Source of the DNA: an uncultured Rivibacter sp.
GTDB lineage: Bacteria; Pseudomonadota; Gammaproteobacteria; Burkholderiales; Burkholderiaceae
Assembly: GCA_946480925.1 (NCBI GenBank)
Contig: CAMLLU010000015.1
Coordinates: forward strand, 27,787 to 91,786
DNA: 64,000 nt
Direction: 5' to 3'
Shown: positions 4,249-64,000 of the stretch, piece by piece
Layout of the letters: each line of letters opens with the position of its first letter
Numbering within the stretch: the stretch's first letter is position 1
Translations under genes and position numbers: made by a program
Notes under the pieces: generated by a model
The model's input: the letters and a program-made list of their open reading frames with translations, nothing else
Told to the model about the DNA's origin: nothing
The model's database searches: none

Positions 4249-5493
4249 TCAGACGCGCTTGAATACCAACGATCCGTTGGTACCGCCGAAGCCGAAGTTG
4301 TTCTTCAGCGCGACGTCGATCTTCATCTCGCGCGCCGTGTTGGCGCAGTAGTCCAGGTCGCACTCGGGATCCTGGTTGAAGATGTTGATCGTGGGCGGCG
4401 ACACCTGGTTGTGGATCGCCAGCACGGTGAACACCGACTCGATGCCGCCGGCCCCGCCCAGCAGGTGGCCAGTCATCGACTTCGTGGAATTGACCACCAG
4501 TTTCTTGGCGTGGTCGCCGAAAGCCAGCTTGATCGCGTTGGTCTCGTTGACGTCGCCAAGCGGCGTCGAGGTGCCATGCGCATTGAGGTAGCTCACCTGC
4601 TCTGGCGTGACGCCAGCGTTGCGCATGGCAGCCTGCATCGAGCGGCGCGGACCATCGACGTTGGGCGCGGTCATGTGATACGCGTCTGCGCTCATGCCGT
4701 AGCCGCCCAGTTCCGCATAGATCTTGGCACCGCGCGCCTTGGCGTGTTCGTATTCTTCGAGCACGACCACCCCAGCGCCTTCGCCCAGTACGAAGCCATC
4801 GCGATCCTTGTCCCAGGGGCGGGACGCGGTCTTTGGGTCATCGTTACGGGTGGACAGTGCGCGTGCAGCCGCGAAACCGCCGATGCCCAGAGGAGATACC
4901 GTAGATTCCGCACCGCCGGCGATCATCACGTCGGCATCGCCATATTCGATGAGCCTGCCCGCCTCGCCGATGCAGTGCAGGCCGGTCGTGCAAGCCGTGA
5001 CGATGGCCAGGTTGGGACCTTTGAACCCGCACTGGATCGACACATGGCCGGAGATCATGTTGATGATCGAAGCCGGCACGAAAAACGGCGACACCCGACG
5101 CGGGCCACGGTTCATCAGCTCGGTATGGGTTTCCTCGATCATCGGCAGACCACCGATGCCAGAGCCGACCAGGCAGCCGATGCGCTCCGCGAACTCTGCG
5201 GTGAGCGCTTCGCCTGTGGGCAGGCCTGCATCCTTCACAGCCTGCAGCGACGCTGCCAGACCATAGTGGATGAAGGTATCCATGTGCCGTGCTTCCTTGC
5301 CGGGGATGTAGTCCTCGACGTTGAAGCCCTTCACTTCGCCGGCAAAGCGGCAAGCCAGATTCGAGGCATCGAACTTCGTGACGGTGTCGATGCCGGACTT
5401 GCCGGCCACAAGGTTGGTCCAGGATTCGGCCACCGTGTTGCCCACGGGGGTCACGAGTCCAAGTCCTGTCACGACGACGCGGCGGCGACTCAT
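4249..5493 (-). CDS. fabF: Beta-ketoacyl-ACP synthase II (FabF)
   Basis: Condensing enzyme that elongates acyl-ACP with malonyl-ACP in type II fatty-acid synthesis. Its 414 residues match the usual length. The thiolase-fold active site is complete: Cys168 in TACTTGLHC, His306 in [11 protein letters not shown], Lys338 in NSTKSM and His343 in [10 protein letters not shown]. The N-terminal [15 protein letters not shown] is the FabF signature. It sits 42 bp downstream of acpP and is the last gene of the fab run; the rpoE-linked membrane-protein gene follows 27 bp later. Confidence 0.97.
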
Positions 5494-5535
5494 GCGGTAA
5501 AGCTCAGGTTGCAGTTGAAAAGCAAGCCAGGGAGA

Positions 5536-5814
<279 letters not shown>

Positions 5815-5823
5815 CTACGGTGT

Positions 5824-5847
5824 CTAGGGGCTCTCCCCTAGGAGAGC
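5824..5847 (-). promoter_or_regulatory. Two overlapping, mutually exclusive hairpins between fabG and acpP
   Basis: On the plus strand CTAGGGG (5824-5830) and CCCCTAG (5835-5841) form a perfect 7-bp stem with a 4-base loop. GCTCTCC (5830-5836) and GGAGAGC (5841-5847) form a second perfect 7-bp stem with a 4-base loop. The stems share bases, so only one can form at a time. There is no run of U after either, so a simple terminator is unlikely. The structure lies in the acpP leader on the minus strand. A role in attenuation or mRNA processing is inference. Confidence 0.5.
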
Positions 5848-5892
5848 ACACCGCGTACCGGACGGGCTCAAACCGGCTGGGGCACGAGGCCC

Positions 5893-6642
5893 TCAATTCA
5901 TGTACATGCCGCCGTTGACGTGAAGTTCGGTTCCTGTCACGTACCCAGCCTGCGGCGATGCCAGGTAAGCCACCGCTTCCGCGATGTCGTCCGGGCTGCC
6001 GAGGCGGCCCAATGGAATTTGCGCCAAAAGCGCTGTCTTCTGGGCTTCGGGCAAGACCTCCGTCATGTCGGTGGCAATGAAACCGGGCGCCACGCAATTG
6101 ACCGTAATGCCCCGGCTGCCGAGTTCGCGCGCAAGCGAGCGCGTCATGCCGGCCACACCGGCTTTGGCTGCCGCATAGTTCGCCTGACCGGGATTGCCAC
6201 TGGCACCGACGACCGAGGTAATGTTGATGATGCGTCCATAGCGCTGCTTCATCATCGGCTTGATGGCTGCGCGGCTGGCGCGGAACACCGCCCTCAGGTT
6301 GGTATCCAGCACAGCATCCCAGTCTTCGTCCTTCATGCGCATCGACAAGGTGTCGCGCGTGATGCCAGCGTTGTTGACCAGCACGTGGAGGCCGCCCAGT
6401 TCCTTGACGATGCCGTCGATGGCACTGTCCAGCGCAGCCGCGTCGTTAACATTCAGCACCAAGCCCCGGCCGCCCAAGGGCGCCAACGCTTCGGTGATCG
6501 CCGCGGCACCGCCTTCGGTCGTGGCGGTTCCCACGACCTTGTAGCCACGCTGTGCCAGCGTCATTGCAATGGCACGCCCGATGCCACGGCTGGCGCCGGT
6601 GACCAGTGCAACCTGCGTTGCTGCAGACTGGTTCTCGCTCAT
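5893..6642 (-). CDS. fabG: 3-oxoacyl-ACP reductase FabG
   Basis: NADPH-dependent short-chain dehydrogenase that reduces beta-ketoacyl-ACP. The 249 residues show the cofactor motif TGASRGIG (15-22), NNAG (90-93) and the catalytic Ser143, Tyr156 and Lys160 (GQANYAAAKAG). The C-terminal VTGTELHVNGGMYMN is typical of FabG. Its start overlaps the fabD stop as ATGA, so the two are coupled. Confidence 0.97.
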   Translation of the reverse strand: MSENQSAATQVALVTGASRGIGRAIAMTLAQRGYKVVGTATTEGGAAAITEALAPLGGRGLVLNVNDAAALDSAIDGIVKELGGLHVLVNNAGITRDTLSMRMKDEDWDAVLDTNLRAVFRASRAAIKPMMKQRYGRIINITSVVGASGNPGQANYAAAKAGVAGMTRSLARELGSRGITVNCVAPGFIATDMTEVLPEAQKTALLAQIPLGRLGSPDDIAEAVAYLASPQAGYVTGTELHVNGGMYMN

Positions 6643-7580
6643 GCCAACAGCCCTTTCGCCTCAGTCAAGCTCGCCGGGTCGTATACCGCAGCACTCGTCA
6701 ATTCCGCATCGATGCGTTTGACCATGCCGGCAAGCACCTTGCCCGGCCCACATTCGAACACGTACTGCAGGCCACGCGCTTTCAGCGCCTGCACCGTTTC
6801 GACCCAGCGCACCGGACCGAACGCCTGACGGTACAGCGCATCACGGATCATCTGGACGTCACTTTCGGCCTTGACGTCAATGTTGTTCACCACTGGCACA
6901 GCCGGCACGGCGAACGACGTGGCTGCCAGCATCGCCTTCAGGCGCTCCGCAGCCGGCTTCATGAGGCTTGAATGAAAGGGCGCCGACACAGGCAGCGGCA
7001 GCGCCCGTTTTGCGCCTTTGGCCTTCAAGACATCACAGGCTTTTTCGACGCCAGCCTTGCTGCCGGCGATCACCGTCTGCTTTGGGTCATTGAAGTTGAC
7101 CGCTTCCACCACCTCGCCACTTGCAGTGGCCGCTTCGGCACAACCAGCACGCACCGCGTCCGCGTCGAGCCCCAGGATCGCAGCCATGCCACCAGCGCCT
7201 ACCGGCACGGCTTCTTGCATCGCCTGCGCGCGAAAGCGTACGAGCGGCAAGGCATCCTTCAGTTGCAATGCACCAGCAGCCACCAGCGCGGTGTATTCAC
7301 CCAGCGAATGGCCGGCCACTGCAAAAGGCTTGAGGCCGGTTTCGGCCAACCAAGCTCGATAACACGCCACGCCGGCCGTCAGCATCACTGGTTGCGTATT
7401 GGTGGTGAGGTCGAGTTGTTCCTTCGGGCCTTGCTGGATCAGCTGGCCAATGTCTTCACCGAGTGCCTCGGAAGCTTCGGCCAGCGTCTGATTCACGACA
7501 GGGTGATCACCCCAGGCGTCGAGCATGCCGACGGCCTGCGAGCCTTGACCTGGGAAGACGAATGCGAACGAGGTCGTCAT
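6639..7580 (-). CDS. fabD: Malonyl-CoA:ACP transacylase FabD
   Basis: Transfers malonyl groups from CoA to ACP for chain extension. The 313 residues include the N-terminal FPGQGSQAVGM, the nucleophile Ser92 in GHSLGEY, and the PVSAPFHSSLM segment with the partner histidine. QTVIAGSKAGVE and the C-terminal VFECGPGKVLAGMVKRI are family-typical. It follows fabH after a 59-bp gap and overlaps fabG by four bases. Confidence 0.97.
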   Translation of the reverse strand: MTTSFAFVFPGQGSQAVGMLDAWGDHPVVNQTLAEASEALGEDIGQLIQQGPKEQLDLTTNTQPVMLTAGVACYRAWLAETGLKPFAVAGHSLGEYTALVAAGALQLKDALPLVRFRAQAMQEAVPVGAGGMAAILGLDADAVRAGCAEAATASGEVVEAVNFNDPKQTVIAGSKAGVEKACDVLKAKGAKRALPLPVSAPFHSSLMKPAAERLKAMLAATSFAVPAVPVVNNIDVKAESDVQMIRDALYRQAFGPVRWVETVQALKARGLQYVFECGPGKVLAGMVKRIDAELTSAAVYDPASLTEAKGLLA

Positions 7581-7639
7581 CGCTGCAAACCTTCTCTTCT
7601 TCTCGTCGAGATTGTTGAAAGGGAAAGAGGAAGCGCGGC

Positions 7640-8629
7640 TCAGAAATCGAGCAGCACTGCGCCCCAGGTGAAGCCACCGCCCACACCTTCGAGCATGACC
7701 GTATCACCCTGCTTGATGCGTCCGGTGCGCACCGCATGGTCCAGCGCCAGCGGGATGGAGGCAGCAGAGGTATTGCCGTGTTCATTGACCGTGACGATGA
7801 GCTTTTCGAACGGAAGCTTCAGCTTCTTCGCTGTGCCCTGCATGATGCGGATATTGGCCTGGTGCGGAATCAACCAGTCGATGTCGGCATCATTACGGCC
7901 AGCCTTGCTCAGCACCGAACGCGCCACGTCTTCCAGCACGCCAACTGCCAGCTTGAAAACGGCCTGACCATCCATTTTGAGCAGTGGGTCGCCCAGCACC
8001 TTTCCGCCGGCCACGGTGCCTGGCGTACACAGGATTCCGACATGGCGGCCGTCGGCATGCAGCTCACTGGCCAGGAGGCCAGGTTGATCGGACGCCTCCA
8101 ATACCACGGCACCAGCACCATCGCCGAACAGCACACAGGTGGTACGGTCGTTGAAGTCGAGAATGCGCGAGAAGACTTCCGCGCCAACCACGAGCGCCTT
8201 CGTCGCCGCGCCGGTGCGGATCATCGAGTCGGCCACCGTCAATGCATAGACGAAGCCCGAGCACACCGCCTGCACGTCGAACGCTGGGCAGCCCTGCACG
8301 CCCAGCTTCTGCTGGATCAGGCAGGCCGTCGACGGAAAGATCATGTCCGGCGTCGAGGTGGCGACAAGGATCAAGTCGATGTCCGAGGCGCTCCGTCCGG
8401 CCGCCTCGAGCGCGTGCTTTGCCGCCTCGAAGCCCAGATCACTGGAGGTCACCTCCGGCGCCGCGAAATGCCGCGCATGAATACCAGTGCGCGCGACGAT
8501 CCACTCATCGGACGTTTCGATGCCACGCTGGGCCAGCTCGTCGGCCAGCTGTACGTTGGTGACCCGCTTGGGCGGCAGGAAGCTGCCGGTACCTGTGATG
8601 CGGGAATAGCGAGGAAGCGAAAGTGTCAT
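7640..8629 (-). CDS. fabH: Beta-ketoacyl-ACP synthase III (FabH)
   Basis: Starts fatty-acid synthesis by condensing acetyl-CoA with malonyl-ACP. The 329 residues carry the KAS III triad: Cys123 in [13 protein letters not shown], His256 in IPHQANIRI and Asn286 in [10 protein letters not shown]. The N-terminal [15 protein letters not shown] and RTGIHARH are typical of FabH. The start overlaps the plsX stop as ATGA. A second, divergent KAS III homologue lies at 60431-61561; this copy, set in the fab cluster, is the housekeeping one. Confidence 0.97.
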
Positions 8630-9741
8630 GCAGCTTGGGCTACGGCAGCTACCTCGGGTGCAGCGCCAGCTGCGTCTGCCGGCAACGCCTGCAGTGTTTC
8701 GAGGATGCGATCGTGGACCCGGTCTAGCAGTCGATTGCGGGCGGCATCATACGCTCGATTGAGCGCTTGCTCGAACGCGAAGGCGTCAGCCGAACCATGG
8801 CTCTTGAATACCAGTCCGCGCAGCCCAAGTAGCGCGGCGCCGTTGTAGCGACGGTAGTCCACGCGATGTTTGAAGCTCTTTAGCACCGGAAGGGCGATGA
8901 TCGCCGCTGCTTTGGTAAAGATGTTGCGCGTGAATTCCTGCTTGATGATGCTCGAGAGCATCGCCGCCAAACCTTCGGCAGTCTTCAACGCCACGTTGCC
9001 CACAAAGCCGTCGCACACCACAATGTCAGTGGTGCCCTTGAAGATGTCGTTGCCTTCGACGTTTCCGTAGAAGTTGATGTGGCCGCCGTTCGCGGCCGAG
9101 CGCAGCAATTCACCCGCCTTCTTGATCACGTCGCTGCCCTTGATGGCCTCCTCGCCAATGTTGAGCAGGCCAACAGTGGGGTTCTGGTCGCCCTCGACTG
9201 CAGCTGCCAGCGCACTGCCCATCACCGCGAACTGCAGAAGGTGCTCGGCAGTGCAATCGACGTTGGCGCCCAAGTCGAGCACGATCGTGTGACCGTCGTG
9301 CTGGTTGGGCATCACCGTGGCGATCGCCGGGCGGTCAATGCCGTCCAGGGTCTTCAGCAGATAGCGGGCCACAGCCATCAACGCACCGGTGTTTCCGGCC
9401 GAGACACAGGCGTCGGCAGCGGGCTTCGCCGACTCCACGGCCCTGACCTGGCTGATGGCCACGCGCATCGAGGAATCCTTCTTGCGGCGCAGCGCCACCT
9501 CGATGGGGTCGTCCATTTCCACCACCTCCCCGGCGGGCACAACAGTGCAGCGCGGCCACGCTGCCGCCACGGCCAGCACGTCCGGCCGCCCGACGAGGAT
9601 CAATTCCGCCCCGGGATGCGCCGCCAGAAAGGCTTGGCAGGCCGGCAGCGTCACGGACGGACCATGATCACCACCCATGCAATCGACGGCGATTCGCACC
9701 GGCCGCTCGGGCGGCTGGGCGAGAGGTTGGGAATCAGTCAT
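8626..9741 (-). CDS. plsX: Phosphate acyltransferase PlsX
   Basis: Makes acyl-phosphate from acyl-ACP, the first step toward phosphatidic acid via PlsY. The 371 residues begin after a short leader with the family pattern [20 protein letters not shown], and include [21 protein letters not shown] and [11 protein letters not shown], both typical of PlsX. It overlaps fabH by four bases. The 230-bp stretch upstream (9742-9971), before the rpmF stop, shows no gene and no clear T-run terminator. Confidence 0.96.
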
Positions 9742-9971
9742 GAAGGAAGGACGTCAGGCGTCACGCCCGGCAGGCGCAAGAAGGTGCCAACACTACGCGA
9801 GCCTCGCCCTGCGGACAAGCCGCCTGACCCCTAACGACAAAGGGCAAGCAGGAAACGGCAAATGTCAATGCACAACGCCCGACAACCCCTCCGGGCAGCC
9901 GGGCGCAGGTGCAGCGCATGCGACGAACTCAAGGCGAAGGCGCCGCTTAATGCAGCACCTCGGGCACAACG

Positions 9972-10154
9972 TCAGGCGTCAGCCTTGGTCTTGAGTACCT
10001 TGCGACCACGGTAGAAGCCAGTCGGGCTGATGTGGTGGCGCAGGTGGGTTTCGCCGGTGGTGGGCTCGATCGCGGTGCCCGGCGCTGCAAGAGCGTTATG
10101 CGAGCGATGCATGCCACGCTTGGACGGCGACTTTTTGTTCTGCTGAACGGCCAT
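9972..10154 (-). CDS. rpmF: 50S ribosomal protein L32
   Basis: Sixty-residue ribosomal protein of the large subunit. [20 protein letters not shown] at the N-terminus and [15 protein letters not shown] at the C-terminus are the L32 pattern; no zinc cysteines are present. The ATG at 10154 has an AGGAG Shine-Dalgarno sequence about 6 bases upstream. The reading frame stays open upstream to 10397 but that is not coding. The yceD-rpmF-plsX-fab order matches E. coli. A probable extended -10 promoter lies at 10230-10238. Confidence 0.97.
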
Positions 10155-10229
10155 GATGAACTCCTGGGTCCTGCGGCAAGCGCCTCGAGCAGCATTCGGC
10201 TCGACAGGCAACTTGGCGGAAAGCCGAAA

Positions 10230-10238
10230 ATTATAGCA
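10230..10238 (-). promoter_or_regulatory. Extended -10 promoter element upstream of rpmF and the fab cluster
   Basis: Read on the minus strand this is TGCTATAAT, a perfect TGn extended -10 joined to the consensus TATAAT (hexamer at 10235 to 10230). It lies about 76 bases before the rpmF ATG. No good -35 hexamer is seen at 17 bases, as is usual for extended -10 promoters. It would drive rpmF, plsX and the fab genes. Confidence 0.55.
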
Positions 10239-10244
10239 GGGCTG

Positions 10245-10262
10245 GCTCGCGCTAGCGCGAGC
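10245..10262. repeat. Perfect 18-bp palindrome in the -35 region of the rpmF promoter
   Basis: GCTCGCGC (10245-10252), TA, GCGCGAGC (10255-10262) is a perfect inverted repeat in the short yceD-rpmF gap. It sits where the -35 contacts would be for the extended -10 at 10230-10238. It could be an operator for a fatty-acid or envelope regulator, or a hairpin ending the yceD message. I cannot tell which from sequence alone. Confidence 0.55.
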
Positions 10263-10272
10263 ATCAAGTGCG

Positions 10273-10839
10273 TCAGTGGGAATTACCACCGGACCGACCA
10301 CGCTTGAGCGCCTCCAAGGCCGCAAAGGGGTTCTGCCTGGGCTCTGGCTGCTCTGCCGGCTCGGCGCCCGAAACTTGCAAAGGCTGCGGGCAGACATCGT
10401 GACGAGGCACGATGGGCAAGGCCAACAGCAATTCGTCCTCTACCAATTCCTGGAGGTTCAACGCGCGAGTGAGCACCAACACATCGTCATCCATTTCGGC
10501 ATCGAGCTCGGCCGCAGCAGCCTCATCAGCCACGAACCGCAGAGAGCGCCCCACCGCCAAGGTTTTGGCCGCGGGCCGCAGGCACCGCTGACACTCCAGC
10601 GAGATGCCGGCACTCACCTCCAAGTGCAGCCAGACCTCAGGCTGCCCACCCATTTTCTGCCGGAGCTCCCCTCGCGCACTCCAGCGGACAGGTTGCGCTT
10701 GATCCTGCCTCGCCTCCGCAGGCTGACAAGCAGCCAACCGCTCGAGATCGACCACAGGCCATTCGCCCGCGAGCGAACCGCCAGCCTGAGCAAATGCGGC
10801 CACATCCAGACGAAATGGATCGAAAGCTTTGGGTTTCAT
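10273..10839 (-). CDS. yceD: YceD family protein (DUF177), 23S rRNA accumulation protein
   Basis: Conserved protein encoded beside rpmF; in E. coli YceD affects 23S rRNA accumulation. I take the ATG at 10839 ([18 protein letters not shown]), giving 188 residues; the frame is open to 10920 but would overlap the divergent maf start. The domain shows [20 protein letters not shown], with the CxxC pair typical of DUF177, then [19 protein letters not shown] with a further Cys. The C-terminus is a charged tail ([16 protein letters not shown]). Confidence in family is high, in exact biochemical role low. Confidence 0.88.
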
Positions 10840-10918
10840 CGTGGGCAGTGTATCGAGCCACAACTGACGCCTTAGGCTCGATGGGACAATGTCGAGCCCC
10901 TCGCCGTCAAAACGGACC

Positions 10919-11536
10919 ATGGCACCCCAACCCCAACTGATCCTGGCCTCTACCTCCCGCTACCGGCGCGAACTGCTCGAACGTTTACACCTTCCCTTTC
11001 AGGTGATCTCACCGCAGGTCGACGAAACACCGCTGCCCGGTGAGTCGCCGCAAGCGCTGTCGGAACGGCTGGCGCTGGCCAAGGCGTTGGCGGTGGCACA
11101 CACACATCCGGACGCTGTGGTCATTGGCTCCGACCAGGTGGCCGATCTGAACGGCTTGGCGATCGGCAAACCGGGCCATCACGAGCGAGCAGTCCAACAA
11201 CTGAAGGCCATGCGCGGCCAGAAGGTCGTGTTTCACACGGCGCTTGCCGTCGTGAGGCTGAGCTCGGCTTACGAAGGCAAGACGCGCGTACCGGTGGATG
11301 TGCACTTTCGTACTGACCTCACCGAGGCCGACATCGAGGCCTACCTTCATACGGAACGACCGTATGACTGTGCCGGCAGCGCCAAAGCCGAGGCTCTGGG
11401 CATTGCGCTGCTCGAATCGATCCATTCTGACGACCCGACCGCGCTGATCGGGCTGCCATTGATTCAGACCTGCGCGCTCCTCCGCGCCGCAGGGCTTGAC
11501 CCGCTACGCACTGCGGCCGGAGCAGCGAGGTCATGA
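10919..11536 (+). CDS. Maf-family nucleoside triphosphate pyrophosphatase (YceF type)
   Basis: House-cleaning enzyme that hydrolyses modified nucleotides; the YceF subfamily acts on 7-methyl-GTP. I start at ATG 10919 (MAPQPQLILAS), giving 205 residues; the frame is open upstream to 10889. Motifs seen: LASTSRYRRELLERL near the N-terminus (the Maf S/T-S-x-R-R nucleotide-binding loop), QVDETPLPGESP, IGSDQVADLNG and YDCAGSAKAEALGIALLES. It is divergent from yceD, the usual neighbour of yceF. The stop overlaps the next gene as ATGA. Confidence 0.9.
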   Translation: MAPQPQLILASTSRYRRELLERLHLPFQVISPQVDETPLPGESPQALSERLALAKALAVAHTHPDAVVIGSDQVADLNGLAIGKPGHHERAVQQLKAMRGQKVVFHTALAVVRLSSAYEGKTRVPVDVHFRTDLTEADIEAYLHTERPYDCAGSAKAEALGIALLESIHSDDPTALIGLPLIQTCALLRAAGLDPLRTAAGAARS

Positions 11537-12321
11537 GCACCGCATTCGGCCGCCTGCTGCTGGTGCCCAACACACTGGACTTCGGCACGCTGCAAGAAGG
11601 CCCCCCGCTTCCCGACCTGCAAGAGGTGCTACCGCTGGGCGTGATCCGCACTGCGGCAAGCCTGAAACACTGGGTTGCGGAAAACGCCAAAACCACCCGA
11701 GCCTTCCTGAAGCGTGTCGATGTCGTGATCCCACTGGCACGACCGCTGCAGGAAATCGAGATCCGTGAACTGCCACGCGCGCCCAAGGGCACACACAAGA
11801 CCACCCCCGGCTCATTGGCTGCGGATCTGCGCGAGCTGCTCGCGCCGGCACTGGGCGGAGAAGACCTCGGGCTCATTTCCGAAGCCGGGTTGCCTGCCAT
11901 CGCAGATCCCGGCGCGCCGCTGGTGGAAGCGGCCCACGCTGCCGGGCTTACCGTGCAGGCACTGTCTGGCCCAAATTCTTTGTCGCTTGCCCTGGCCAGC
12001 AGTGGGCTGAACGGCCAGAGCTTTGCCTTTGTCGGCTACCTGCCCACCCAAACCAGCGAACGCGCTCAACGGCTCAAGGAGCTGGAGCAGATTTCGAAGC
12101 GGCTGGACCAGGCGCAAATCGTCATCGAGACGCCTTACCGCAACAACGTGCTACTCGACGCAATGCTCACGACTCTTCAACCGAGCACCCGGCTCAGCGT
12201 GAGCTGCGGACTCACGCTCACCGCCGGATGGACCCGCAGCGAAACCGTGGCGCGCTGGCGCGGCCAGCGTGATGTGCTGCCCGACGATACGCCGGCTGTC
12301 TTCTGCTTCCAGGCTGCCTGA
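11533..12321 (+). CDS. SAM-dependent methyltransferase, tetrapyrrole methylase/RsmI-like family
   Basis: Member of the tetrapyrrole (corrin/porphyrin) methylase fold, closest in pattern to the RsmI 16S rRNA 2'-O-methyltransferases. The 262 residues include LISEAGLPAIADPGAPLVEAAHAAGL and ALSGPNSLSLALASSGL, the RsmI-type SAM and substrate loops, and FVGYLPTQTSERAQRLKELE. The N-terminus (FGRLLLVPNTLDFG) differs from true RsmI, where a VPTPIGNL motif stands, so the substrate is uncertain. It overlaps the maf stop by four bases and ends 21 bp from the convergent helicase gene. Confidence 0.82.
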   Translation: MSTAFGRLLLVPNTLDFGTLQEGPPLPDLQEVLPLGVIRTAASLKHWVAENAKTTRAFLKRVDVVIPLARPLQEIEIRELPRAPKGTHKTTPGSLAADLRELLAPALGGEDLGLISEAGLPAIADPGAPLVEAAHAAGLTVQALSGPNSLSLALASSGLNGQSFAFVGYLPTQTSERAQRLKELEQISKRLDQAQIVIETPYRNNVLLDAMLTTLQPSTRLSVSCGLTLTAGWTRSETVARWRGQRDVLPDDTPAVFCFQAA

Positions 12322-59315: not shown

Positions 59316-59324
59316 TGAAGACCA

Positions 59325-59358
59325 CCGGCCCGCAGACAATGCGGGCCGGCGGCGTTTT
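59325..59358 (+). terminator. Rho-independent-type terminator after enoyl-CoA hydratase
   Basis: CCGGCCCGC (59325-59333) pairs with GCGGGCCGG (59341-59349), a perfect 9-bp stem with a 7-base loop, followed by TTTT at 59355-59358. It separates the hydratase gene from the cluster beginning at 59377. Confidence 0.7.
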
Positions 59359-59376: not shown

Positions 59377-60438
59377 ATGGAGGGAACGGCACTGCATCAG
59401 GCCGGCTTCGTGCCGCCATTGCCCCATGCCCAGCCGATCCAACCGACAGTGTTCGTGAATCCAGTCGTTTCATCTCCGGCCGCTGCACCCGCAAGGAAGC
59501 GCGTGCTGGTCATCCACTACTCGCAGACCGGCCAGCTCAGCTCGGTGATCGAGCAGATCGTCGCGCCGCTCGCGGCCGATGCCGGCATCAGCGTGCACGT
59601 CGAGACGCTGCAGCCGCTGCCGGGCTACCCCTTTCCGTGGCCGTTCTTCCGCTTCTTCGACGCCTTTCCCGAGTCGGCCCACATGGTGCCGCCGGCGCTG
59701 GCGCCGTTGTCGCTCTCGGGCGATGAGCATTTCGACCTGGTGATCCTGCCCTACCAGGTGTGGTTCCTCGCGCCTTCGCTGCCCATCACGGCCTTCCTGA
59801 AGCACCCCGTCGGCAGGAAGCTGCTCGCCGGCAAGCCGGTGGTCACCGTGATCGCGTGCCGCAACATGTGGATGCTTGCCCAGGAAAAGCTCAAGGCCCT
59901 GCTGGCCGGCGCCGGTGCCAGGCTGATCGACAACGTGGTGCTCGCCGACCCGGGGCCCACGCTGGCCACCTTCATCACCACGCCGCGCTGGCTGCTCACC
60001 GGCCGGAAGGGCGGCTTCTGGGGCATGCCGCCGGCAGGTTTGAACGATGGGCAGATCCGCAGCACACGCCGCTTCGGCCTGGCACTGCGCGATGCCTTGC
60101 ATGAAGACCGCGAACAGCAGCCCGCCGCGATGTTGAGCGGGCTGGGCGCGGTGCAGGTCGAGCCTCACCTCTACATCAGCGAAAAGGCCGGCACGCGCGG
60201 CTTCTACATCTGGGGAGCGTTGCTGCGAGCGGCCGGTGGCCCGGGCAGCCCGCAACGCGTGCCGCTGCTTGCGTTCTATTCGATGTTCCTGGTCGTGGCC
60301 ATTGTCACGATCGTGCCCGTGAGCCTTGCGCTGCAGGCCCTGCTGCGGCCTTTGCTGCGGGGGTGGCTCTCTAGAATCAAACAGCAGTTCGAACTTCCCT
60401 CCGGGTCGGCCACCGACCGTCTTGCATCGTATGAATGA
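59377..60438 (+). CDS. Flavodoxin-like protein of the dialkylresorcinol condensing enzyme (DarA-like) type
   Basis: A 353-residue protein opening a five-gene transport/biosynthesis cluster. A short unstructured leader (about 40 residues) precedes a flavodoxin-like fold: KRVLVIHYSQTGQLSSVIEQIV (the SxTG phosphate loop), DLVILPYQVWFLAPSLPITAF and KPVVTVIACRNMWMLAQEKLK. The C-terminus ends in a membrane helix (LLAFYSMFLVVAIVTIVPVSLAL). I recall similar proteins annotated as dialkylresorcinol condensing enzymes, but that name rests on gene neighbourhood and may not fit. It overlaps the KAS III-like gene by 8 bases. Confidence 0.68.
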   Translation: MEGTALHQAGFVPPLPHAQPIQPTVFVNPVVSSPAAAPARKRVLVIHYSQTGQLSSVIEQIVAPLAADAGISVHVETLQPLPGYPFPWPFFRFFDAFPESAHMVPPALAPLSLSGDEHFDLVILPYQVWFLAPSLPITAFLKHPVGRKLLAGKPVVTVIACRNMWMLAQEKLKALLAGAGARLIDNVVLADPGPTLATFITTPRWLLTGRKGGFWGMPPAGLNDGQIRSTRRFGLALRDALHEDREQQPAAMLSGLGAVQVEPHLYISEKAGTRGFYIWGALLRAAGGPGSPQRVPLLAFYSMFLVVAIVTIVPVSLALQALLRPLLRGWLSRIKQQFELPSGSATDRLASYE

Positions 60439-61561
60439 AGTATTTCTGACCCGCACGGGCGCTTTCCTGCCCTTCGCGCCGGTCGGCAACGAAGAGATCG
60501 AGGAAGTTCTGGGGCGGGTGGGAGGCAAGGCCTCGCGGGCGCGCCGGCTGGTGTTGCGCAGCAACGGCATCCAGTCGCGCCACTACGCCATCGACCGCGC
60601 CACGGGCCAGCCGGCGATGAGCAACGCACAGCTCACCGCGGCTGCGATCCGCGCGCTGGGTTCGGACATCGGCGAGGTCGATTGCCTGGCCACCGGCACT
60701 TCGCTGCCCGACCAGCTGATGCCCAACCATGCGGTCATGGTGCATGGCGAACTCGGATGGCCTGCGCTCGAAGTGGTGTCGTGCGCGGGCATCTGCCTGT
60801 CCGGCACCGCGGCACTGAAGCACGCCTGGCTCGCGGTGCGGGCCGGCGATGCACGCCGCGCCGTGGCCACCGGCTCCGAACTGGCGTCGCCCATCCTGAT
60901 GGCGCGCAACTTCGACGCGGAGGTCGAGCACAAGGTGCAGGAGCTCGAGGCGCGGCCCGAGATCGCGTTCGAAAAGGACTTCCTGCGCTGGATGCTGTCC
61001 GACGGCGCCGGCGCGGTACTGCTGGAGCGCGAGCCGCGCGGCCCGCTGTCGCTGCGCATCGACTGGATCGAGCTCTCGTCGGCCGCACACCGCCTGCCGG
61101 TGTGCATGTACGCCGGGGCCGAGAAGAACGCCGACGAATCGCTGCGTGGCTGGCTCAGCTACGAAGCCCGCGACCGGCAAGACCTGTCGGTGATGGCCGT
61201 GAAGCAGGACGTGCGACTGCTCAACGACAACATCGCCCGCGCGATGCGCGACTCGCTGGAAGTGCTGATGAAAAAGCGCCCGCTGCGCGTCGACGACGTC
61301 GACTGGTTCCTGCCGCACCTGTCGTCGCAGTACTTCACGCAGGCTGCCGTCGACGGGCTCGAGCACGTGGGCCTGCCCATTCCTCGCGAGCGCTGGTTCA
61401 CCAACCTCACCAGCAAGGGCAACACCGGCTCCGCCTCGCCCTACATCATGCTGGACGAGCTGTTCCGCTCGGGCCGCATCGAGCGCGGCCACAAGCTTTT
61501 GATGTTCGTGCCGGAGAGCGGGCGTTTCTCCAGCGGTTTCGTCTACATGCAGGCTGTCTAG
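60431..61561 (+). CDS. Beta-ketoacyl-ACP synthase III-like condensing enzyme (DarB-like)
   Basis: A 376-residue thiolase-fold enzyme. Aligning with the FabH of this window gives a complete triad: Cys122 in SCAGICLSGTAALKHA, His296 in FLPHLSSQYF and Asn331 in SKGNTGSASPYIML. The N-terminus (FLTRTGAFLPFAPVGNEEIEE) and the loop RSNGIQSRHYAIDRATG differ from FabH, and it is 47 residues longer, so its substrate is probably not acetyl-CoA plus malonyl-ACP. Set between a flavodoxin-like protein and an exporter, it is likely to make or join acyl chains of a secondary product. Confidence 0.82.
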   Translation: MNEVFLTRTGAFLPFAPVGNEEIEEVLGRVGGKASRARRLVLRSNGIQSRHYAIDRATGQPAMSNAQLTAAAIRALGSDIGEVDCLATGTSLPDQLMPNHAVMVHGELGWPALEVVSCAGICLSGTAALKHAWLAVRAGDARRAVATGSELASPILMARNFDAEVEHKVQELEARPEIAFEKDFLRWMLSDGAGAVLLEREPRGPLSLRIDWIELSSAAHRLPVCMYAGAEKNADESLRGWLSYEARDRQDLSVMAVKQDVRLLNDNIARAMRDSLEVLMKKRPLRVDDVDWFLPHLSSQYFTQAAVDGLEHVGLPIPRERWFTNLTSKGNTGSASPYIMLDELFRSGRIERGHKLLMFVPESGRFSSGFVYMQAV

Positions 61562-61584
61562 GAACTTAGGGTCTACTCCGCCCC

Positions 61585-61980
61585 ATGGACATCGACTCCG
61601 TTCCACAGGAAGGCAACGCCACGCTCGGCGGCCATCGCAAGGCCCTGTACGCGCGCGACGCGCAAGGCCGCATGGTGATCGCGGCCTCGCGCGGCTGGGA
61701 AGCCGAAGAGATCGTCACCAGCCACGCCGTCGAGGCGCTGCAGGCGCAGGCCGAAGCAGCGCGTGCGCGCGCTGCAGCCGGCTTGGCATCGCCGCTCGAA
61801 TACTGGATGTACGCACGCCGCATGGACGTCGGCCTGCTCGCGCAAAGCACGGGCTTCTGGCGCTGGCAGGTGCGCCGCCACCTGCGGCCCGAGGTGTTCG
61901 CCAGGCTGCCGGCCGCAAAACTGCAGCGCCACGCCGACGCGTTGGGCCTGACCATCGACGTGTTGAGGCAGTTGCCATGA
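61585..61980 (+). CDS. Hypothetical 131-residue protein of the KAS III/BtrH-like cluster
   Basis: Unknown function. The sequence is mixed alpha-helical: AAEEIVTSHAVEALQ-like helix in the first third (EEIVTSHAVEALQAQAEAARARA), then PLEYWMYARRMDVGLLAQSTGFWRWQVRRHLRPEVFARL, whose LLAQSTGFWRWQVRRHL part resembles a helix-turn-helix. It overlaps the BtrH-like gene as ATGA, so it is part of the operon; it may be a small regulator or a partner protein. Confidence 0.65.
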   Translation: MDIDSVPQEGNATLGGHRKALYARDAQGRMVIAASRGWEAEEIVTSHAVEALQAQAEAARARAAAGLASPLEYWMYARRMDVGLLAQSTGFWRWQVRRHLRPEVFARLPAAKLQRHADALGLTIDVLRQLP

Positions 61981-62972
61981 CGCAAGCGATCGCGAAGTTC
62001 GACCATCAGCACGCCGCGCACTGCGAGAGCGGCGTCATCGCCAACCTGCTGCGCCACCATGGCGTGCCCATGACCGAGAGCCTGGCCTTCGGCTTGTCGG
62101 CCGCGCTCTCGTTCGCCTACATACCGCTGCTCAAGATGCAGGGCATGCCGATGGTGGCCTACCGCATGCCGCCCAAGTCCATCATCAAGGGCCTGCTGGC
62201 GCCGCTGGCGGCGCGGTTCCGCTTCGAGACGTTCCGCACGCCGGCGGCCGGGCGCGCCCGGCTCGACGCCTTGCTGGCACAAGGCCAGGTGGTGGGCCTG
62301 CAGACCTCGGTGTACTGGCTGCCCTACTTCCCCGAGGACATGCGCTTCCACTTCAACGCACACAACCTGCTGGTCTACGGCAAGGTGGGCGACGACTATC
62401 TCGTCAGCGACCCGGTGTTCGAGGAGCCCATGCGCTGTGCCGCCGCCGACCTGGACCGCGCCCGCTTCGCCAAGGGCCTGCTCGCGCCCAAGGGCCTGCT
62501 GTACTACCCGCAGGCGATCGGCCACAAGGCGGTGGACGCGCAGGCGGTCAAGGCCGCCATCCGCAAGAACGCCCGCATGATGCTGGCGCCGGTGCCCATT
62601 GCCGGCGTGCGCGGCATGCGGCTGCTGGCACGCAAGCTCGAGAAGCTCCCGCCGGGTGATGCGCACAGCACCGCCTTCGTCGGACACGTGGTGCGCATGC
62701 AGGAAGAGATCGGCACCGGCGGCGCGGGCTTCCGCTTCATCTACGCAGCCTTCCTGCAAGAGGCTGCGGAGCTGGCACAGCTGCCGCAGCTGCAAGCGTT
62801 CTCCGAGCGGCTCACCAGCATTGGCGACGGCTGGCGTGCGTTCGCGCTCGCGGCAGCCCGCATGGTCAAGGGCCGCGATCCGCTCGATCCGCCCAAGCTG
62901 GCAGCGCGACTGCGCGAACAGGCGGCCCGGGAAGAAGCCTTCTTCCGCGAGCTGCAGGCGGCGGTGCGTTAG
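61977..62972 (+). CDS. BtrH N-terminal-like protein (DUF4872/C39-like fold)
   Basis: A 331-residue protein whose N-terminal half matches the BtrH type, named after the butirosin enzyme that transfers an acyl chain from ACP to an amine. Candidate catalytic residues are Cys16 in HCESGVIANLLRHHG, His129 in FNAHNLLVYGKVG and Asp145 in SDPVFEE, a Cys-His-Asp set. The C-terminal half is helical (YAAFLQEAAELAQLPQLQAFSERL). No signal peptide is seen. With a condensing enzyme and ABC exporter on either side, acyl transfer from an ACP-bound chain is a plausible role. Confidence 0.78.
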   Translation: MTQAIAKFDHQHAAHCESGVIANLLRHHGVPMTESLAFGLSAALSFAYIPLLKMQGMPMVAYRMPPKSIIKGLLAPLAARFRFETFRTPAAGRARLDALLAQGQVVGLQTSVYWLPYFPEDMRFHFNAHNLLVYGKVGDDYLVSDPVFEEPMRCAAADLDRARFAKGLLAPKGLLYYPQAIGHKAVDAQAVKAAIRKNARMMLAPVPIAGVRGMRLLARKLEKLPPGDAHSTAFVGHVVRMQEEIGTGGAGFRFIYAAFLQEAAELAQLPQLQAFSERLTSIGDGWRAFALAAARMVKGRDPLDPPKLAARLREQAAREEAFFRELQAAVR

Positions 62973-63904
62973 TGCCTGCGATGCTGGAGATCCGCAACCT
63001 CGGGTTTCGCTATCCCCGAGCCGACAAGCCCGCGCTCGACGGCGTGTCGCTGCAGGCCCAACGTGGCCGCGTGCTCGGCCTGCTGGGGCCCAACGGCGCC
63101 GGCAAGACGACGTTGATCTCGCACCTGGCCGGCCTGCTGCCGGTGCGCGAAGGCGAGATCCTCGTCGACGGCGAGCCGCTGGAGCTCGTGCGCCGGCGCA
63201 CACCCACGCGCATTGCCGTGGCGCCGCAGGAATACGCCTTCTATCCGATGCTCGACGTGCGCGAGAACCTCGCCTGCTTCGGCGCGGCCGGCCGCCTTTC
63301 CGGTGCGAGGCTGGCACAGCGCATCGACGCATGCATCGCCTTCGCACAGCTCGAGCGCTTCGCGTCCACACGCGCCGACCGGCTCTCCGGCGGCCTGAAG
63401 CGGCGCCTGAACCTGGCCATCGCGCTGCTGCCCGAGCCCGAGCTGATGCTGTTCGACGAGCCCACGGTGGGCGTCGATCCGCAATCGCGCGCCTTCGTGC
63501 TCGATGCGATCAGGAACCTCGCGAAGCAGGGCGCGGCCGTGATCTACACCTCGCATTACATGGAGGAGATCGAGGCCATTGCCGATGACGTGGTGATCGT
63601 CGACCACGGCAAGGTGCTGCGCGGCGGCACCCTGCAGGCGCTGCTGGCCGAAGGCGCCATGCAGCTCACGCTCGCGGCTGACGGCCTCGACGGCGAAGCC
63701 CTGCATGCGCTGCTGGCGCGCTTCGGCTCGCCCGAAGGCCGAGGCGAACGCATCACCCTGCAACTGGCTGCGCCGCACACGCCGGCCGCCGTGCTGGCCG
63801 CCGTCGAAGCTGCCGGCGCGCACGTGCGCCAGGCCGAATTCGGCCGCTACAACCTGGAGCAGCTGTTCATGACGCTCACCGACCGCTCCCTGCGCGACGA
63901 CTGA
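62972..63904 (+). CDS. ABC transporter ATP-binding protein
   Basis: Nucleotide-binding subunit of an exporter-type ABC system. The 310 residues start at GTG 62972, one base inside the BtrH-like stop; ATG 62981 is possible. Walker A is GPNGAGKT (39-46), the signature LSGGLKRR (141-148), Walker B LMLFDEPTVGVDP (162-173) and the H-loop TSHYM. The C-terminal 80 residues form the regulatory tail seen in CcmA/drug-exporter ATPases. It is followed directly by the permease gene. Confidence 0.93.
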   Translation: MPAMLEIRNLGFRYPRADKPALDGVSLQAQRGRVLGLLGPNGAGKTTLISHLAGLLPVREGEILVDGEPLELVRRRTPTRIAVAPQEYAFYPMLDVRENLACFGAAGRLSGARLAQRIDACIAFAQLERFASTRADRLSGGLKRRLNLAIALLPEPELMLFDEPTVGVDPQSRAFVLDAIRNLAKQGAAVIYTSHYMEEIEAIADDVVIVDHGKVLRGGTLQALLAEGAMQLTLAADGLDGEALHALLARFGSPEGRGERITLQLAAPHTPAAVLAAVEAAGAHVRQAEFGRYNLEQLFMTLTDRSLRDD

Positions 63905-64000
63905 TGCTGGCCGCCCTCATCAAGAAGGAACTGCTCGCGCTCACGCGCGACGTGCACGGCATGGCCGCGCTGTTCCTGATGCCGGTGATGTTCATCGTCA
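63904..64000 (+). CDS. ABC-2 type transporter permease, cut by window edge
   Basis: Only the first 32 codons are visible (MLAALIKKELLALTRDVHGM then a hydrophobic run FLMPVMFIV). The start overlaps the ATP-binding subunit stop by one base (TGATG). The amphipathic N-terminus followed by a membrane segment is the usual beginning of ABC-2 permeases (IKKEL..L.RD). It should be the membrane partner of the ATPase; more cannot be said here. Confidence 0.85.
   Translation, partial: MLAALIKKELLALTRDVHGMAALFLMPVMFIV

Follow-up and report, generated by a model that had tools for sequence, protein, structure and literature searches.

The front part of a probable arcuflavin-type dialkylresorcinol operon in an uncultured Rivibacter sp.

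Genes of the locus

We analysed a 64,000-nucleotide stretch of DNA from an uncultured Rivibacter sp. (contig CAMLLU010000015.1, positions 27,787 to 91,786; hereafter the window), whose ORF (open reading frame) listing shows five closely packed genes followed by the onset of a sixth, a permease gene, at 59377-63904. These genes, darA, darB, darD, darE, darF and darI (Table 1), very probably represent the 5' part of a dialkylresorcinol (DAR) operon of the arcuflavin type, serving the synthesis of a polyene ester pigment. The locus adds an example of an already described type of gene set, the product class of which is known, with the front part of the operon lying in the window. The identities of the genes, their order and their co-occurrence with polyene markers are established by homology. 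The literature drawn on consists of parts of four publications (PMC3949708, PMC3992019, PMC4414361 and PMC6403133), and the gene names follow the Azoarcus paper among them (PMC3949708), so that darD corresponds to the DarG family of NCBIfam and darE to its DarH. The names darG and darH of the Azoarcus paper refer to different genes, antitoxin-like and PilT-like, that are located between darF and darI.

Table 1. Features of the locus, in window coordinates
Feature	Position	Strand	Description
Stem-loop	59322..59352	+	Arms 59322-59334 / 59340-59352; candidate terminator, short T run
darA	59377..60438	+	Flavodoxin-like, DAR aromatase / 'dialkylresorcinol condensing enzyme'; start codon uncertain
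darB	60431..61561	+	StlD/DarB-family ketosynthase; predicted to condense and cyclise two acyl chains
darD	61585..61980	+	131 residues; NCBIfam 'DarG family'
darE	61977..62972	+	NCBIfam 'DarH'; BtrH_N + DUF4872; proposed acyltransferase
darF	62972..63904	+	ABC (ATP-binding cassette) transporter ATP-binding protein, exporter type; PF00005
darI	63904..64000	+	Onset of ABC-2 permease, truncated by window end

The genes are tightly joined. DarA lies next to DarB, their genes overlapping by 8 bases (60431-60438); a gap of 23 bases separates darB from darD; darD and darE overlap in an ATGA (61977-61980); and single bases are shared by darE and darF (62972) and by darF and the permease gene (63904). 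The coordinates agree with the compact five-gene set, the beginning of a sixth gene and the junction sizes described in an earlier note on this DNA.

The assignment of darB was based on its match to the NCBIfam StlD/DarB model NF005293 (572.8 bits, cut-off 450), although its score was below the cut-off of the narrower model NF053539 (464 versus 550). The closest solved protein was StlD (5gk0, E=8.6e-118), aligned over nearly the full length. The Cys122, His296 and Asn331 triad that the earlier note had recognized in what it called a KAS III-like (ketoacyl synthase III-like) enzyme is present, and these residues are conserved in 98%, 98% and 100%, respectively, of 53 aligned sequences.

The window DarA on its own had no Pfam or NCBIfam match, and no curated DarA model matched it. 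A profile of the DarA family, however, matched a solved flavodoxin-like protein (E=7e-4, profile positions 6-110 of 319), so that the earlier description of the first gene as flavodoxin-like was right at the family level. An FMN_red match was found in three of 29 family members (best E 1.6e-5), with weak flavodoxin or FMN (flavin mononucleotide) reductase matches in some, and a hydrophobic stretch was noted by eye at the C-terminus. Among the 120 relatives listed of 3425, those with an informative name were dialkylresorcinol condensing enzymes, most being nameless or 'hypothetical protein'. Many of these listed relatives are 311-335 residues long compared to 353 residues here, making the start at 59377 doubtful.

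DarD passed the NCBIfam DarG family model NF053536 (167.7 bits, cut-off 70) and DarE the DarH model NF053550 (479.4 bits, cut-off 300). DarE also carries PF14399 (BtrH_N, 161.5 bits) and PF16169 (DUF4872), both strong matches that bear out its earlier designation as BtrH-like. Searched singly against PDB sequences, DarA, DarD and DarE gave no usable match, and profile searches with DarD and DarE against solved structures gave only designed, repetitive or sub-significant matches. The best NCBIfam matches of DarF, an ATPase by its PF00005 match, were DrrA and NodI, both under their cut-offs. The 19 aligned residues at the onset of DarI were all identical to the permease of the nearest related locus, and a full-length relative matched PF12698. 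An ABC exporter had been predicted at this position, and the ATPase and the permease onset that follows it agree with this.

Relatives, known counterparts and flanks

A scan with the darD protein found 28 related loci (numbered with L). The nearest, L001 in Methylibium rhizosphaerae, has 87.6% DNA identity to the window through to its end, and beyond that point continues with the permease, a carrier protein, a ketosynthase and darK. The suggestion that the cluster runs past the window was thus borne out; the absence of a carrier protein from the visible part also holds, but in this close relative one is encoded just past the point where the window ends.

The gene order A-B-D-E-F-I-C-J-K was found in 16 of the 28 loci. 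Six loci (L001, L004, L009, L010, L020 and L028) were one or two genes short at the thresholds used, four short loci (L008, L015, L017 and L019) were near contig ends, and two (L016 and L027) were rearranged. In L016 of Ferriphaselus (5847-11990), the C-J-K block precedes darA rather than trailing the permease. These order strings used the best match above threshold for each gene and did not count genes below threshold, such as the carrier protein of L001; in the gene map, D and K also drew ORF matches to flanking frames. In a wider sample of 369 genomes from the class to which Methylibium belongs, A-B-D-E were usually together, while F-I-C-J often formed a second, adjacent block. The earlier note had asked whether the genes are unrelated in other genomes; they are not, as the neighbourhood is conserved in related loci.

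The closest described counterpart is the dar operon of Azoarcus sp. BH72 (azo0293-azo0283), given in Table 1 of Schoner et al. 2014 (PMC3949708). It comprises darA (DAR-aromatase), darB (DAR-cyclase), darD (hypothetical), darE (BtrH-like peptidase), darF (ABC ATPase), the antitoxin-like and PilT-like pair darG and darH, darI (permease), darC (acyl carrier protein), darJ (ketosynthase) and darK. According to that table, the six genes of our locus occur in identical order in Azoarcus, and the likeness extends past the window to darC, darJ and darK, as seen in L001, with polyene genes located outside the dar operon. The difference is that the window lacks the pair between darF and darI. The Azoarcus product is arcuflavin, for which mass spectra led to a proposed ester of a dialkylresorcinol and a xanthomonadin-like polyene; its production requires two polyene loci that are not linked to one another, and dar and polyene clusters were reported to be co-present in Variovorax, Dechloromonas and Sideroxydans (PMC3949708). 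The earlier note had proposed a single operon that makes, acyl-transfers and exports a molecule of acyl-amino or acyl-phenol type. The single operon and its three functions agree with our reading, and 'acyl-phenol' comes close to the phenolic lipid expected here, but the product class is not one without a name, since NCBIfam has names for three of the genes, relatives of the first are called dialkylresorcinol condensing enzymes, and the Azoarcus operon already published has the same gene order; the cluster can be placed in a named pathway.

Other DAR systems are less similar. In the published descriptions of flexirubin clusters (Chitinophaga pinensis and Flavobacterium johnsoniae, Bacteroidota), DarA and DarB make the DAR half, and the two C. 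pinensis proteins together produce DAR. A flexirubin-type likeness is also seen in the Cyclobacteriaceae locus L028, which has darD and darE and an ammonia-lyase gene ~2.5 kb from darA; this locus is from another phylum and identities are low (45% for its DarE). Pseudomonas chlororaphis makes free DARs from darABC plus regulators, and Photorhabdus senses free DARs as signals (PMC4414361). These systems share the DarA and DarB chemistry, whereas the descriptions of darABC drawn on here mention no darD, darE, ABC exporter or second ketosynthase.

Upstream of darA, the stem-loop lies between an enoyl-CoA hydratase gene and the first dar gene. It had been regarded as a clear terminator. The fold itself is strong (-28.2 kcal/mol, z -3.5), but only four T follow the stem and the terminator scan did not list it. 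The hydratase gene adjoins the dar genes in only one of the 28 related loci (L001), with a partial match (60% identity) about 5.7 kb off the dar genes in L026, and it was not counted as part of the dar system.

The aryl-polyene partner

In Methylibium rhizosphaerae, an aryl-polyene cluster is present on a contig other than that of the dar operon (L047 and L048), whereas the Azoarcus polyene locus azo0253-0264 is, by its published locus numbers, fairly near dar. The Methylibium cluster encodes ketosynthases, an ApeP-like dehydratase, an AMP (adenosine monophosphate)-ligase fused to ApeI, acyltransferases, a phosphopantetheinyl transferase and an aromatic ammonia-lyase, and has LolA_3 and PF13723 matches. 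By eye, two of its genes are carrier-protein-like, and a large membrane-protein gene has weak exporter matches. The marker LolA_3 was found in 27 of the 28 genomes with darD and in none of 14 control genomes. ApeI (PF22818) was also tried as a marker and set aside, as it matched in 15 of the 28 genomes and exceeded its cut-off in two, too weak for counts. Based on these relatives, we infer that the organism from which the window derives carries an aryl-polyene cluster.

The wider sample allowed the genes of the operon to be compared with polyene markers. DarB exceeded its cut-off in 21 of the 369 genomes, and DarE and DarD each in 18; the latter two sets are the same 18 genomes, all of them among the 21 with DarB. 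Neither DarD nor DarE exceeded its cut-off in the 14 controls. Distant DarE-like proteins, far under the cut-off, were found in two further genomes and a fragmentary match in one. The polyene-type ketosynthase PF13723 was found in 87 genomes overall, including all 18 with DarE and also the three that have DarB and lack DarE, and so does not split DarE-bearing from DarE-less genomes among the 21. It was absent from all four genomes with distant, sub-cut-off DarB-like proteins. LolA_3 was over its cut-off in 14 of the 18 DarE genomes versus 49 of the 351 others. One-sided Fisher tests gave 6e-31 for DarD with DarE, 1e-12 for PF13723 with DarE and 8e-9 for LolA_3 with DarE, values that overstate the strength of association as the tests ignore genome kinship. 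In seven of the 18 genomes (G099, G100, G183, G280, G316, G375 and G386), darB and a PF13723 or LolA_3 match were no more than 30 kb apart. This pattern of co-presence fits a joint role of DarD and DarE in forming a polyene ester.

The polyene appears to be started in more than one way. In the arcuflavin-type system, a XanB2/ArcB-type chorismatase is described as giving the 3-hydroxybenzoate starter. A chorismatase domain of the FkbO/Hyg5/XanB2 type was identified in 25 of the 28 genomes with darD and was not found in the remaining three, those of Methylibium rhizosphaerae (G001), Caldimonas mangrovi (G002) and one Cyclobacteriaceae. All three encode an aromatic ammonia-lyase, which is found near the polyene-cluster LolA_3 match in Methylibium and Caldimonas and near the dar genes in the Cyclobacteriaceae genome (L047 13217-14971 and L028 4102-5340 are the lyase entries for Methylibium and the Cyclobacteriaceae). 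The Methylibium lyase was under all NCBIfam cut-offs. Ammonia-lyases are not diagnostic alone, being present in seven of the 28 genomes and five of the 14 controls, and four of those seven also have the chorismatase, their lyase copies, HutH-like or other, lying at a distance from the polyene marker; we therefore counted a lyase only where it was positioned beside polyene or dar genes.

An unrooted FastTree tree of DarB and DarE grouped the window with Methylibium (support 1.0) and then with Caldimonas (0.994), with Variovorax and Xenophilus loci, whose genomes have the chorismatase, alongside this group (0.998). It thus seems that, among close relatives, one resorcinol operon goes together with polyenes that differ in their starter. 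Extrapolated to the strain of the window, this would mean that the starter has been swapped there as well. The two nearest relatives depart from the arcuflavin system in that their polyene cluster encodes an aromatic ammonia-lyase and their genomes have no chorismatase, and because of this their pigment may differ from arcuflavin. If so, a single type of resorcinol operon would serve variously started polyenes in related bacteria.

The ester step and alternative explanations

In the pathway that we propose, DarB would join and cyclise two acyl thioesters derived from fatty acids to a 2,5-dialkylcyclohexane-1,3-dione, and the flavodoxin-like DarA would convert this to the resorcinol; a cyclohexanedione intermediate has been described for DAR synthesis (PMC4414361). 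DarC, DarJ and DarK would probably supply or carry acyl chains. A separate cluster would make the aryl polyene, as judged from the nearest relatives and from the markers detected in almost every genome that has the operon. DarE, with DarD as its partner, would form an acyl-enzyme on Cys16 and hand the carrier-bound polyene on to the phenol. DarF and DarI probably export the lipid or pigment, given the family to which they belong, and the end product would most likely be a polyene-resorcinol ester pigment, in which the oily resorcinol is linked to a polyene of yellow or orange colour.

The proposal for DarE is based on its invariant residues, its BtrH domain and the presence pattern described above. 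BtrH of butirosin synthesis is an acyltransferase that takes its acyl group from a carrier protein. DarE shares the BtrH_N domain with it and differs in having other partner genes and in its acceptor, which would be a phenol where that of BtrH is an amine. His10, His15, Cys16, Glu17, His125, His129, Asn130 and Asp145 of DarE are invariant, and Cys16, His125, His129 and Asp145, compared in 46 aligned sequences, are the candidate catalytic residues. We tentatively consider DarE to be an ester-forming acyltransferase, at somewhat less than an even chance. It is with the same reserve that we put forward DarD and DarE together as the synthase that forms the ester in polyene-resorcinol pigments. They would make up a BtrH-type acyltransferase for which both proteins are obligatory, and which would use a thioester and carry the completed polyene over from its carrier to a phenol. 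Such a synthase would accept more than one polyene, since the DAR operon is mostly paired with a polyene started by chorismatase but, in the nested lineage of the window, with one started by ammonia-lyase. The proposal would supply two candidate genes for a step of arcuflavin and flexirubin synthesis that the literature consulted leaves unassigned or guessed.

Several observations weigh against an operon that serves a polyene ester, or against the part given to DarD and DarE. Queries with the proteins of the Methylibium cluster detected no polyene gene in the window, where the only condensing-enzyme match was to a FabF-like gene (4249-5493). LolA_3 was not found in the Bacteroidota genome G028 and, among the 18 DarE genomes, was missing in G262, G316 and G381 and sub-cut-off in G207. 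PF13723 also occurs in 66 of the 348 genomes in which DarB does not exceed its cut-off. In three of the 21 DarB genomes (G132, G226 and G249), darA and darB are accompanied by a polyene-type ketosynthase but not by DarD, DarE or any BtrH_N protein, and consequently the presence of both halves does not always call for DarE, unless these genomes make free DAR or use another enzyme. DarB exceeded its cut-off in one of the 14 controls, and none of these has DarE or DarD; this control slightly lowered our estimate for DarD and DarE as the ester synthase. For flexirubin in Chitinophaga, the literature tentatively assigns the ester step to the ligase-like FlxW.

Two further observations were made on these genomes. 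In two of the three that have darA and darB in the absence of darD and darE, similar proteins of ~410 residues sharing the motif RWDGYISQ adjoin darA (L084 12292-13524 and L086 7319-8560). PF13723 was found in one of the 14 controls, Bacteroides ihuae, which may or may not be the control bearing DarB.

The genomes lacking DarD and DarE and the FlxW proposal are in keeping with a second explanation, a possible one with less than an even chance, in which DarD and DarE serve export or regulation and a FlxW-like ligase of the polyene cluster makes the ester. DarD would then be a Cro/C1-type regulator and DarE a peptidase-like or loading enzyme, and Schoner et al. did label the Azoarcus DarE a 'BtrH-like peptidase'. 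A regulator role for DarD is possible because its C-terminal half weakly resembles the Cro/C1-type helix-turn-helix (HTH_26) in some relatives (11 of 41, best E 0.002). However, the window member had no helix-turn-helix match, SUKH-3 matched the relatives about equally well (three of 41, best E 0.0013), and no precomputed Pfam domain was present on any of the 120 DarD relatives listed of 4009. In addition, the 18 of 369 genomes that have DarD are exactly those that have DarE, and one would expect a regulator to disappear or be exchanged independently from time to time.

That the DAR stays free, as a signal, antifungal or antioxidant exported by DarF and DarI, with DarE adding an ordinary fatty acid or nothing, we consider improbable. 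Free DARs are known from P. chlororaphis and Photorhabdus, and the lack of polyene genes in the window would agree with such a product. The operons described for free DARs are, however, darABC, the descriptions leaving darD and darE unmentioned; the polyene-type ketosynthase accompanies DarD and DarE in every genome of the sample that has them, and the closest relative has a polyene cluster. Moreover, the hybrid pigment was reported in Azoarcus extracts, where DAR itself was undetectable.

Finally, it is scarcely credible that darB is a second housekeeping FabH in a chance neighbourhood, the reading that the earlier note had named as its own refutation: its FabH-family matches are weak, with 66.9 bits in the FabH model TIGR00747 (cut-off 292.1) against the passing StlD/DarB score, it has 25% identity to the window FabH (7640-8629, named by eye), from which the earlier note had already distinguished it, and the gene order is conserved in many genomes. 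The window FabH is itself located amid fatty-acid synthesis genes on the - strand (4249-9741), which were named by eye as plsX, fabH, fabD, fabG and fabF.

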